Shown here piece after piece: positions 21,530-25,526 of a stretch of 64,000 nt of DNA. The DNA is taken from assembly GCA_947259315.1 (NCBI GenBank), contig CAMYLR010000006.1, positions 73,687 through 137,686 on the forward strand. The letters run 5' to 3'. Both the position numbers and the translations under genes were made by a program. The notes under the pieces are model-generated. The model was not told the DNA's origin and did no database searches. It worked only from the letters and a program-made list of their open reading frames with translations. Every line of letters begins with the position of its first letter. Position 1 is the stretch's first letter. The stretch is from an uncultured Gemmatimonadales bacterium (lineage in GTDB: Bacteria > Gemmatimonadota > Gemmatimonadetes > JACCXV01 > JAHWKZ01).

Positions 21530-21718
21530 CCCGGATGGTGGTATCGACAGCCCATCCAGGCTGTTGAGCACCCCGCTTTCGCCGCCTTATAGCGGTCACA
21601 CATCACGAACCGATTCGTGCGTGGCATGGTTTCAACCTACGCCTATGTGTGCGTCTCGTCCAGCCTCCTGCCGAGCAATAATCCGCGGATTGAGGTAAAA
21701 TTGGTGTTGAGGTTGGCC

Positions 21719-22222
21719 ATGCGAGCGAAGCTCATCCTACCCTTGATCGCGTTTCTCGCGTGTGACAGCGAAAGCGGATTCTCACCCGTCGGGTCGGTGT
21801 CCGGCGGGTTGCGTGTGAACGGTGAGTGGACCGAGACCCGTGGGGTCCGAGAGAACAGCTGCTCGACCCGGCTACCGAAGATCGCCTCACAGCACATCTT
21901 GATCACACGGATCGATGATCAGCTCACTCTTCGCACCGCGTCGGGGCACGAGCGTTTGGGGACGATCGACGCGACAAGCGGCGACTTCGAAGTCGACGCG
22001 CTGCTCGAGATCGCAGGCGAGACGTGGCCGGGAGTCCAGCGGGGCCGCTTCTTCTCCGGTGACAGCTTTGGTGCGAGAACGTTCGTCAACCTCATCGACA
22101 CCGCCTCCGCGGACGGCGACTCATGCCGAGTCGTCACTTCCGACGTCGGTCAAAAAGGGAGGCGGTCGGTCCTGGAGGGGGTTGAGAATGGAGAGCCCGG
22201 GATGTCTCGGGAAGGCTCCTAG
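21719..22222 (+). CDS. Small lipoprotein, unknown function
   Basis: 167 residues from the ATG at 21719, chosen because it starts a clean lipoprotein signal (RAKLILPLIAFLAC, Cys 15) with GAGG about 10 bases before it; the frame is open back to 21617. The mature protein has a beta-rich pattern with two further Cys (SCSTRL and DSCRVV) and the strand HILITRIDDQLTLRTAS. It resembles the lipoprotein at 25010-25498 in order and spacing (G-W/Y, Cys, SQ-x-I/L-ITR, G-x-I/L-D), suggesting a shared lipocalin-like fold. It ends 5 bases from the convergent CHAT gene. No known family was recognised. Confidence 0.65.
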   Translation: MRAKLILPLIAFLACDSESGFSPVGSVSGGLRVNGEWTETRGVRENSCSTRLPKIASQHILITRIDDQLTLRTASGHERLGTIDATSGDFEVDALLEIAGETWPGVQRGRFFSGDSFGARTFVNLIDTASADGDSCRVVTSDVGQKGRRSVLEGVENGEPGMSREGS

Positions 22223-22227
22223 CCGGG

Positions 22228-23991
22228 TCAGTTCGTCGAGAACTCGCTCACGTCCTCGTACCAGTCCATCTCGGGCGGGTAACCGAGGGTCTCCTCGAAA
22301 CTCACACCGCCGCATTCCTGGGGCAATTCCTCACATCTGAAGAGGTTGGTCTCGATGTGGAGTAGGATCCGGCCTCTGCAAGCACATGCGCCGTCCAGGA
22401 ACGGGTCGATATTGGGAATCGCGGGAACTTCACACGACCACTGCCAAGTAGGCTGCTGCTCGCAAGTTGCCACCAGCGATTCGTACGTCGCTTGGTTGTG
22501 GTTCTGGGTAACTAGAGTTGCAACCGATTCTTCCGCAGCGGGTGGTACGTCATCGGCACTCGTATAGAGGTAGCCCGCTATCGCAACAACGACTCCCAGA
22601 ACTACCGCACCAATGATCACGGGGCGTCGCCCTCGCTGCTTTGGCACCTTGGTATCATGCGTTGGTGTTGCGGTTTGGGTCGCGGGTGTTGTCGGCTCCT
22701 CGGCTCGAGGTTGGCCGGACGTCGTGGAACCTTCTAGACCCGACGTGAGCGGTGCCGTTTGCTCCGTGGCCGCGACCGGCGTCGGTTCGGCGGCCTGAGT
22801 ACTTAGCGCATCCGCCACCACCGGTTCGGCATCGATCACGACTTCTTCACCCGACCTAGTGGGTTCGAACAGCACTCCGTCGCGGGAGCGCATGAAGAGC
22901 ACCGGTGTCGCCCACTCCATCGATTGCGGCTCGGCCACGCGAATCGCCTTACGGGCTTCAGCCACGGCCGCATCGACCGGGTACCCCTGCACGATCCGTC
23001 GGTAGAACGTCCCACTGAACTTGATCGCTGCAGTGTCCGAGATCGGAAACTGCATCGCCACAACCGCGGGGATGCCGGCCATGATCAGCGACGTCGCGAC
23101 CCCCGCAAACGGATCGAGGCTCTGTTCCTCGGTCGTCATCGCGGTCTTGCAGGCGTTGAGGAACACCAACCGCAGCGTCGACTCATCGCGCAGCAGGACC
23201 TCCATCGTGCTCGCGTCGACCTGCTCAACTCCGCCCGTGTCGTCTTCGAGTAGCAACACGCCGCGGCCCGTTTCTCGGTTGAAGTCGCCGTGCCCCATGA
23301 AGTGGAGCACGTGGAAATCCTCTTCGGCCAGCTTCTCCAGGAGCGAGGAAGTCGTCGGTCGCTCCACAAAGTGAACCTCGACGTTCTCCATCTTGCCCCA
23401 GCTCGATTCGATCAACTCGCGCTCATGTGTGAGATCGAGCGCCGCCGATCCGGTTGGATTCGAGATCACGACCAGGATCCGCAACGGTGGATCGAACGGC
23501 AGCGGTTTAGGGGGCTGCAACACATCCAACGAACGGATGATCGGTGTCGACTGCGACAAGTTGAGGAAGCGCCGATTGTCCTCGCGGTACAGGAACTCCC
23601 ACGGCAGGCTCGCGACCTCGGCTAGACCCTTACCCTCGAGATCGATGTGGAGTCGGATCCGGAGGCCGCGATCGCTCTCGCGGAGCATCCCCTCGCTGCT
23701 GTCGAGCAGCGATTGGACCTTGTCCCTGAAGAGAGCTGCGTACAGCGCCTTGCCGATAACCTCGGGCCGGGTGTCGGGTTGGTCGTCCTGGACCACCTTG
23801 ACGTCGCGCTGCACGGGCTCCTCGCTGCCCCGCACCGTGCTCGCCAGCCCGTGCAAAAGCTCTCCGACCTCGTCGATATCGAATGGCAGCTCGAGCGTGG
23901 AGCTCGCCTCACCCGCGGGTGAGCTGACGTGCACGGTGTAGACACCGCCCGCGCGCGGCAAAATCCGTACTGAGAAGTCTTCGTAGCGCAT
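22228..23991 (-). CDS. Membrane-anchored CHAT-domain (caspase-like) protein
   Basis: 587 residues from the ATG at 23991; an in-frame GTG at 24078 would add 29 residues but lies only 16 bases after a terminator. The N-terminal ~150 residues are the beta-rich region usual before CHAT domains (ASLPWEFLYR). The CHAT cysteine-peptidase core follows. The catalytic His is in LHFMGHGD (His 234) and the Cys in VFLNACKTA (Cys 281), so the dyad is intact. After residue ~380 comes a Thr/Pro/Ala-rich linker and one membrane helix (residues ~457-477). A ~110-residue extracytoplasmic tail has six Cys, including GACACRG. CHAT proteins act as proteases in cell-death or signalling systems; this one's substrate is unknown and no TPR partner is adjacent. 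Confidence 0.85.
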   Translation of the reverse strand: MRYEDFSVRILPRAGGVYTVHVSSPAGEASSTLELPFDIDEVGELLHGLASTVRGSEEPVQRDVKVVQDDQPDTRPEVIGKALYAALFRDKVQSLLDSSEGMLRESDRGLRIRLHIDLEGKGLAEVASLPWEFLYREDNRRFLNLSQSTPIIRSLDVLQPPKPLPFDPPLRILVVISNPTGSAALDLTHERELIESSWGKMENVEVHFVERPTTSSLLEKLAEEDFHVLHFMGHGDFNRETGRGVLLLEDDTGGVEQVDASTMEVLLRDESTLRLVFLNACKTAMTTEEQSLDPFAGVATSLIMAGIPAVVAMQFPISDTAAIKFSGTFYRRIVQGYPVDAAVAEARKAIRVAEPQSMEWATPVLFMRSRDGVLFEPTRSGEEVVIDAEPVVADALSTQAAEPTPVAATEQTAPLTSGLEGSTTSGQPRAEEPTTPATQTATPTHDTKVPKQRGRRPVIIGAVVLGVVVAIAGYLYTSADDVPPAAEESVATLVTQNHNQATYESLVATCEQQPTWQWSCEVPAIPNIDPFLDGACACRGRILLHIETNLFRCEELPQECGGVSFEETLGYPPEMDWYEDVSEFSTN

Positions 23992-24093
23992 ATCGCGGCC
24001 AATGTGTCCCGTGTGAGTAATCCCTACGCGCGCGACACGATACCGCCCAAGGCGAAAACCGACAACGGCCGTATCCACAAGATGCTCGGGAAG

Positions 24094-24126
24094 AAAAAAG
24101 GGGCGGCTGCGTGCAGCCGCCCCTTT
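24094..24126 (-). terminator. Rho-independent terminator
   Basis: On the minus strand, a GC-rich perfect stem (24126-24113 with 24110-24097, 2-base loop) is followed by a T run (complement of the A run at 24094-24099). It ends transcription from the SnoaL-like gene and the decayed fragment upstream, before the CHAT gene. Confidence 0.9.
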
Positions 24127-24147
24127 CAGCGGGCCTCCTTATCCGGT

Positions 24148-24338: not shown

Positions 24339-24839
24339 CTACGTGTCCGCCGGTTGATCCGTGTTCCAGATGTTTCGGAGAATCAGCCACGATCCGTCAG
24401 CCTGACGCTCCCAGATCGCCATCCACTTCCCGACGGCCGATACCGCATCGCCCTCCTCGGGCGTAATGCTAGACGTGTACCGGCCCCAGCCGACCGCCAG
24501 GTCGCCGGACACCCGAACGCCTTCGAACATGTTGTCAACTTCGACATTACCGAGATCGAAGAGATTGGTCTGCCAATGGCTACGGACCATCTCTGCGCCC
24601 TCCTTGAGTGGGGCGTTCGGCGGCATCGAGGCCGGAGTGGGGTGAAACAGTGAGAGAAGCGCGTCAGCGTCTTCGGCGTTCACCGCTACGTCGAAGTCTT
24701 CCACCAGCTCGTCGAAAAGTTGGTTCGCCTCCGCCTGTGACATTCCGGGCTCGGCTGGCGCCGGAGCCTGCTCGGCGGGCTCGCATCCAAGGCTCAAAAC
24801 CAGAACGCTCAAAACCAGCGCGATTACGGGCGTTCTCAT
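24339..24839 (-). CDS. SnoaL/DUF4440-like lipoprotein
   Basis: 166 residues. A signal peptide ends in the lipobox LSLGC (Cys 19), then an Ala/Pro/Glu linker and a cystatin-like SnoaL fold (residues ~35-160). Landmarks are FDVAVNAEDADALLSLFHPTP near the start and WMAIWERQADGSWLILRNIWN at the end. The fold occurs in enzymes and ligand-binding proteins alike; many exported DUF4440 members have no known ligand. An excellent ribosome site (GGAGGTGA) precedes the ATG at 24839. The transcript probably ends at the terminator near 24100, leaving a long 3' tail that contains a gene remnant. Confidence 0.85.
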   Translation of the reverse strand: MRTPVIALVLSVLVLSLGCEPAEQAPAPAEPGMSQAEANQLFDELVEDFDVAVNAEDADALLSLFHPTPASMPPNAPLKEGAEMVRSHWQTNLFDLGNVEVDNMFEGVRVSGDLAVGWGRYTSSITPEEGDAVSAVGKWMAIWERQADGSWLILRNIWNTDQPADT

Positions 24840-25009: not shown

Positions 25010-25498
25010 CTAGGACCCGTCAACGACGGAACCGGCGGAAACCAGCGGGACCAGCGCCGGCCGTTGCCCGGTGGCACCAAACTCTTGAATGCACTGGACG
25101 CCTGGCGAGTTGGGGTGGGTCCCGTCATAGGTCAGCCGACCGGTCGCCTGGAGACTCTCCCGAATAATCGAGATCTGCATCTCCATGAAGGCGGCGACCT
25201 CGGTGGGTTGGCCGCCCACATCGATCGTCACCATGACCGGCCCCTGCACCTGGATCAATCCCTGATTATCGAGTTGACCGGTTAGCACTCCATCGTCGCC
25301 GAACGCCACGGTGAACTCATCGCCGTTGCGGGTAATGACGATCTGGCTCGTGATATCGTCATTGAGTATCCCATCGCACGTATCCATCGTCTCACCGATA
25401 AACAAATTGTACGTGCCGGTAATCGAGTCGTTTTCATCGTCACAAGCCAGCGCCGAAGCCACCATCCCAGTGACAAACAGAAGCATGAACGTCCGCAT
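25010..25498 (-). CDS. Small lipoprotein, unknown function
   Basis: 162 residues from the ATG at 25498 (a TTG three bases before is open but the ATG has the better position after GAGGG). The signal peptide ends in the lipobox SALAC, followed by an acidic DDENDS stretch, as in outer-membrane-sorted lipoproteins. The mature part is a beta-rich domain with SITGTYNLFI, DTCDGIL, SQIVITRNGDEFTVAFGDD and a later VQCIQEF, leaving two Cys that could form a disulfide. It resembles the 21719-22222 lipoprotein in motif order. It lies between two tRNA genes. No function is recognised. Confidence 0.7.
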   Translation of the reverse strand: MRTFMLLFVTGMVASALACDDENDSITGTYNLFIGETMDTCDGILNDDITSQIVITRNGDEFTVAFGDDGVLTGQLDNQGLIQVQGPVMVTIDVGGQPTEVAAFMEMQISIIRESLQATGRLTYDGTHPNSPGVQCIQEFGATGQRPALVPLVSAGSVVDGS

Positions 25499-25526
25499 CA
25501 AATTCCCTCGCTATCGCATGTTGGAG

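Follow-up and report, generated by a model that had tools for sequence, protein, structure and literature searches.

In the window, i.e., the whole stretch of 64 kb that was analysed, a gene on the minus strand encodes a protein (the query) in which a CHAT domain is followed by a membrane helix and a cysteine-rich tail. It is the sole CHAT gene in its source genome (2.4 Mb, 96% complete). The features of the gene and its surroundings are:

22228..23991, minus strand: gene for the CHAT-TM-tail protein, ATG frame of 587 aa with a CHAT match and a start motif common to relatives
22228-22230, minus strand: stop codon of this gene
23827..23991, minus strand: N-terminal α+β domain (residues 1-55) with the MxYxDF motif, from structure prediction and conservation in relatives
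22897..23754, minus strand: CHAT domain (residues 80-365), Pfam PF12770, 115.2 bits
23290..23292, minus strand: codon of His234, predicted catalytic, 91/91 conserved
23149..23151, minus strand: codon of Cys281, predicted catalytic, 91/91 conserved
22621..22854, minus strand: low-complexity A/T/P/E-rich linker (residues 380-457), from pLDDT and composition
22564..22620, minus strand: single membrane helix (residues 458-476) after KVPKQRGRR (positive inside), hydropathy 2.52, predicted helix 461-477
22231..22563, minus strand: predicted extracytoplasmic tail (residues 477-587, 111 aa) with six Cys
22352..22372, minus strand: 21-nt near-repeat, tail copy (RILLHIE), in frame, 20/21 match to 23642-23662
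23642..23662, minus strand: 21-nt near-repeat, CHAT-strand copy (RIRLHID), in frame, pairing with 22352-22372
24096..24127, minus strand: terminator-like hairpin and U run between the SnoaL and CHAT genes, -31.9 kcal/mol, z -3.2
21656-22222, 24339-24839, and 25010-25501: three lipoprotein-like genes around the CHAT gene, recognized by eye from signal peptide and Cys

A longer frame reaching back to a GTG at 24078 is also open upstream of the ATG, but the ATG at 23991 is taken as the start because the M-x-Y-x-D-F motif located there is also where relatives start. An AlphaFold2 model obtained with 37 input sequences predicts an N-terminal domain (about residues 1-55) of three strands and a helix (β-β-β-α), a long weak loop, and the CHAT fold, with pLDDT values mostly >90 in both domains. 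The N-terminal domain matches no Pfam family, and CHAT is the sole Pfam domain in the protein, scoring far above its cut-off of 24 bits (E 5e-33). For the linker, pLDDT is mostly <60 and in much of it <50, and the flanks of the helix as well as the tail are also low (<50). Comparison of the model with the PDB by Foldseek retrieves separase, DdvA, Csx29/TPR-CHAT, and SAVED-CHAT and, lower in the list, caspases and MALT1; judged from the model and these matches, the core of the protein is predicted to have the fold of a caspase-like protease, including the His/Cys dyad. H234 and C281 are invariant in all 91 aligned sequences, i.e., the query and 90 relatives. The sole hydrophobic segment outside the CHAT fold consists of residues 458-476, and a second hydropathy peak (residues 295-313) lies within the confidently folded CHAT domain. 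According to Pfam, no TPR is encoded in the CHAT gene or its immediate neighbours. Three claims of the preliminary description, an intact dyad, a single membrane helix, and a missing TPR partner, are borne out by these data, and the dyad also withstood a check for its loss in relatives.

On one side the gene is flanked by rsmD-recJ-rnhA-zinc ribbon and on the other by tRNA-Val, tRNA-Met, rpoD, and dnaG, and its near neighbours comprise the lipoprotein-like genes, SnoaL/DUF4440, RNase HI, and rpoD. In a genome of the same genus (G001) the flanking DNA can be aligned (83-84% identity) and the CHAT segment is absent. There, the interval from the lipoprotein-like gene to tRNA-Val (L165:11331-15831) codes for a TPR protein, a nucleotide cyclase, a short protein that by its sequence looks like a truncated haemoglobin, and an amidohydrolase. 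Two of the lipoprotein-like genes have same-site counterparts in G001 and the SnoaL-like one has none. In a genome of the same order, tRNA-Val is located near the zinc-ribbon gene. As the same-genus and same-order genomes differ at this place, the CHAT gene lies in a variable segment beside tRNA-Val, which may reflect either a gain in this genome or a loss in the other. The DNA between tRNA-Val and the CHAT gene showed no att-like direct repeat, so an insertion by a mobile element is not demonstrated. The terminator-like hairpin, which is absent from a simple consensus terminator scan, suggests that the CHAT gene is a transcription unit separate from the SnoaL-like gene. The latter was considered as a partner and ruled out, as relatives contain multiple copies of its family and this hairpin sets it apart from CHAT.

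A search of genome contigs with the single protein gave no relatives; an alignment-based scan of the same contigs found hundreds, of which the best 80 (79 loci) were kept. They stem from Proteobacteria, Chloroflexota, Acidobacteriota, Actinobacteria, Rhodothermia, KSB1, and others. A search of about 395 genomes of the phylum yielded relatives of up to 54% identity, and none were found in viral contigs. The family set is a best-match sample with related members. CHAT is followed by at least one membrane helix in 50 of its 84 distinct complete relatives, and 47 of these 50 have exactly one such helix. CHAT followed by a helix is the majority layout in this sample, common rather than rare, and together with the precedents of HetF (PMC8406250) and EACC1/EACC2 (PMC7159879, PMC8195603) this contradicts the earlier view that such a layout is not commonly described. 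The homologues then envisaged, with CHAT, a C-terminal TM, and the same Cys pattern, were found in part: CHAT-TM proteins are widespread and the Cys pattern is present in no relative.

What follows the helix is highly variable. A Pfam run on 54 family tails detects FGE-sulfatase (5), CBM9 (4), Sel1 (3), PASTA (2), and SH3_3 (2) domains, and further β-propellers, TPR, CsgG, CarboxypepD_reg, and, in one relative, CHASE2. In the best-match sample, the two nearest relatives by CHAT identity (58%), from Paraglaciecola and Kangiella, possess PASTA tails. These two proteins (L068 and L069) have the arrangement CHAT-TM-PASTA-SH3, with domains of the peptidoglycan-binding type outside. The third-nearest and nearest within the phylum (L021, 57% in CHAT) has a helix and a tail of 48 aa with zero Cys, which indicates that an elaborate sensor is not obligatory. 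Recognisably similar tails occur in just 21 of 397 pairs at 45-60% CHAT identity and, given also the varied Pfam domains, sequence comparison identifies the tail as a plug-in part that is exchanged while CHAT stays.

The tail most likely resides outside the cytoplasm, as had been proposed, and a comparative check for a cytoplasmic location did not overturn this. More Lys/Arg residues are found on the CHAT side of the helix in 45 of the 50 helix-bearing relatives, and the query also follows the positive-inside rule. Domains folded by disulfides in an oxidising compartment are expected to contain even numbers of Cys, a property that is independent of hydropathy. Among 45 single-helix proteins, 33 have tails with Cys, and these non-zero counts are even in 30 and odd in 3 cases, with a p of 1.4e-6 that is approximate since a best-match sample of related members is counted. 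With one tail per similarity cluster, 19 even and 3 odd counts remain (p 9e-4). Counts in the cytoplasmic parts of the same proteins are 19 even versus 26 odd, and at the C-termini of helix-free members 15 even versus 9 odd. An even rule that holds for the tails and not for the cytoplasmic side indirectly supports tails that are outside and disulfide-bonded, and the six tail Cys of the query fit this rule.

These six Cys (positions 510, 520, 536, 538, 553, and 560) are all but one of the seven Cys in the whole protein, the only non-tail Cys being the predicted catalytic Cys281; the probability that all six non-catalytic Cys fall by chance within the 111-residue tail is 4e-5. No match to the six-Cys tail was found in relatives, family tails, 390 genomes of the phylum, plasmids, or Pfam. 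Weak matches in the phylum (E 0.005-0.009) were judged to be due to chance, as they mostly contain stop codons or are short frames. Modelled alone, the tail reaches a mean pLDDT of 43 and no confident fold. As it occurs in no relative, the six-Cys pattern is not a conserved feature; the tail is a new element of this protein, the rest of which is a member of a large family. For a tail with neither a relative nor a predicted fold, the case for sensing comes from the family and not from this tail. The 21-nt near-repeat shared by the tail and a CHAT strand has no second example in the window, was unmatched by 300 synonymous and 300 codon-order shuffles, and is possibly a trace of the tail's origin. 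The CHAT part has a third-position GC of 0.82, versus 0.64 for linker plus tail; the value is 0.68 in the tail alone and 0.69 in one housekeeping gene of the window. The drop fits an origin by fusion of parts whose histories differ, or a low constraint on the linker.

Adjacency of caspase and nSTAND1 genes among relatives was counted on all six frames. At 15 of 87 loci, the gene immediately upstream of CHAT, and in the same orientation, codes for a C14 caspase, the gap between the two often being just a few bases; of the 20 caspase matches in these loci, 15 adjoin CHAT in this way. L140 and L151 are one contig, which leaves 14 distinct C14-CHAT loci of about 85 distinct ones (L071, L072, L074, L078, L079, L081, L091, L093, L095, L136, L140/L151, L148, L154, and L158). 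An nSTAND1 ATPase gene adjoins CHAT in about ten loci, and C14 - CHAT - nSTAND1 trios are present in L074, L078, L095, L154, and L158, of which L074 stems from Variovorax sp. J22R133. Six loci contain two or three tandem CHAT genes, and a relative on an Anabaena plasmid adjoins genes for a MoxR ATPase and an FGE protein. The C14 caspase-CHAT operon is a candidate two-protease cascade, and a literature search did not find a C14 caspase-CHAT(-nSTAND1) operon described. The query is a solo version without the operon partners of some relatives: no nSTAND1, C14, or tandem CHAT gene lies beside it and its genome encodes no C14 caspase. A conserved substrate gene, which the preliminary description suggested looking for in the neighbourhoods, was not found next to the query copy.

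Sequence and comparison establish the domain order, the invariant dyad, the single helix, the swapping of tails in the family, and the evidence for an outside tail. Based on the dyad, the fold match to the proven proteases separase and Csx29, the helix, the Cys parity, and the exchange of tails, we consider the CHAT protein, with a probability of roughly 0.55, a one-component receptor protease that spans the membrane, its tail gating the cytoplasmic CHAT. The N-terminal domain and the CHAT cysteine protease would reside in the cytoplasm on the flexible linker, the single helix would span the inner membrane, and the six-Cys tail would fold in the periplasm with disulfides and detect, or anchor to, an envelope component. 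The protease would be switched, via helix and linker, by an altered state of the tail, be it a bound ligand, the redox state, or clustering, and would then cut either itself or a target in the cytoplasm. Proximity is what activates caspases, and clustering might act in a similar manner here; Csx29 is switched allosterically (PMC10028731). Sensing by the tail, activity of the protease, and the roles given to a signal and a substrate are what we infer. The coupling of an envelope signal to intracellular proteolysis, which had been suggested as a possibility for this protein, would be of the same nature and becomes more credible by the swapped tails (PASTA, SH3, CBM9, CHASE2, and others).

The likelihoods attached to the receptor protease and to its rivals are not exclusive, and one rival overlaps with it, namely that the protein is a conflict or defence effector of the EACC-caspase kind, which upon phage attack or envelope damage would cause arrest or death, the tail serving as trigger or the cleaved C-terminus as effector. 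Such systems (EACC1/EACC2) are predicted conflict systems (PMC7159879, PMC8195603), relatives occur in operons with C14 caspase and nSTAND1 ATPase genes or, on the Anabaena plasmid, beside MoxR ATPase and FGE protein, and the gene segment is absent from the same-genus genome. However, the query copy has none of these partners in a genome without C14, it is surrounded by housekeeping genes with no other defence gene adjacent, and its PADLOC match is restricted to the CHAT part shared with SAVED_CHAT, so that we regard such a function as rather unlikely.

Clearly improbable is a membrane factor with a signalling or housekeeping role, as in HetF or DdvA, in which binding, for example to the divisome or a sigma factor, would come first and proteolysis would be secondary or absent. 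Binding alone would not need a dyad that never varies across the family, genes for ECF sigma factors or cell division are missing next to the query, and the HetF equivalog model gives 90.8 bits, below its cut-off of 1200, although HetF too combines CHAT with a single predicted TM and has a function in cell division via FtsI (PMC8406250), DdvA is matched in both profile (E 1.7e-6) and fold (E 1e-11) comparisons, and CHAT genes accompany ECF54 sigma factors (PMC8999054). We give equally little credit to the idea that the tail is a mere anchor cap or the decaying remnant of a former sensor, without a role of its own. Its lack of detectable relatives, the lower third-position GC of linker plus tail, and the nearest in-phylum relative managing with 48 aa would agree with this, but the frame is open to its end, the six Cys are even in number, and the third-position GC of the tail alone is close to that of the housekeeping gene.

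Extending the receptor protease reading, one might think of a broad class with a constant cytoplasmic CHAT and interchangeable disulfide-bonded or envelope-binding sensors, the query carrying an undescribed sensor fold and some lineages a C14-CHAT-nSTAND1 cascade; this generalization is tentative and we would sooner doubt than accept it. If true, bacteria would possess a modular one-component route from an envelope signal to cytoplasmic proteolysis, which would use the same plug-in sensors (PASTA, SH3, and CHASE2) as receptor kinases and be the proteolytic counterpart of PASTA receptor kinases. As the nearest relatives have domains of the peptidoglycan-binding type, the receptor idea can be tested directly in hosts that are culturable, such as Paraglaciecola sp. 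MB-3u-78 with its PASTA tail, and a concrete candidate for a protease cascade is offered by the C14 caspase - CHAT - nSTAND1 operon, which recurs among relatives.

Several known systems share parts of this architecture. Csx29/TPR-CHAT of Craspase is a proven site-specific endopeptidase (PMC10028731) and, like the query, has a CHAT fold with a His/Cys dyad, but it is soluble, TPR-bearing, and CRISPR-associated, whereas the query has no TPR and no cas gene among adjacent genes. Pfam detects no SAVED domain in the query, and the SAVED_CHAT match of PADLOC covers the CHAT part alone. DdvA (PDB 8rot), whose deposited entry names it a transmembrane anti-sigma factor and which contains a CHAT domain, is likewise a membrane protein with a CHAT fold, and a Myxococcus anti-sigma factor named DdvA answers an external signal (PMC4374960); in DdvA, however, whose chain has about 990 residues, the match to CHAT lies at the C-terminus, whereas CHAT of the query is N-terminal and no sigma partner is present. 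HetF of cyanobacteria is CHAT-TM-TPR (PMC8406250) and resembles the query in having CHAT first and then one predicted TM, but it differs by the TPRs after the TM and by its role in the divisome. Orthocaspases with a C-terminal TM or CHASE2 (PMC3501461) combine, like the query's family, a cytoplasmic caspase-fold domain, a membrane helix, and an external receptor domain, although they belong to C14 and not to CHAT.

In EACC1- and EACC2-caspase proteins the C-termini vary, and both TM helices and external domains, among them CHASE2 and PBP, occur (Kaur et al., PMC7159879, PMC8195603), and the EACC2-caspase gene also occurs without TRADD-N (PMC8195603). No TRADD-N, EACC1, or ECF sigma plus DUF1822 genes are located next to the query gene. 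EACC2-caspase, and EACC1-caspase as well, share with the query a caspase-superfamily peptidase and a variable C-terminus, and the confidently predicted β-β-β-α domain of the query may correspond to their constant N-terminal α+β domain. Variable C-termini including extracellular domains behind a TM, in one relative CHASE2, are common to the query's family and EACC2-caspase. The papers of Kaur et al. (PMC7159879, PMC8195603) term the peptidase caspase and never use the word CHAT, and it is likely that the EACC-caspase peptidase family and the CHAT family of the query are the same. The architecture of the protein is of a known type, and what is new is its tail.
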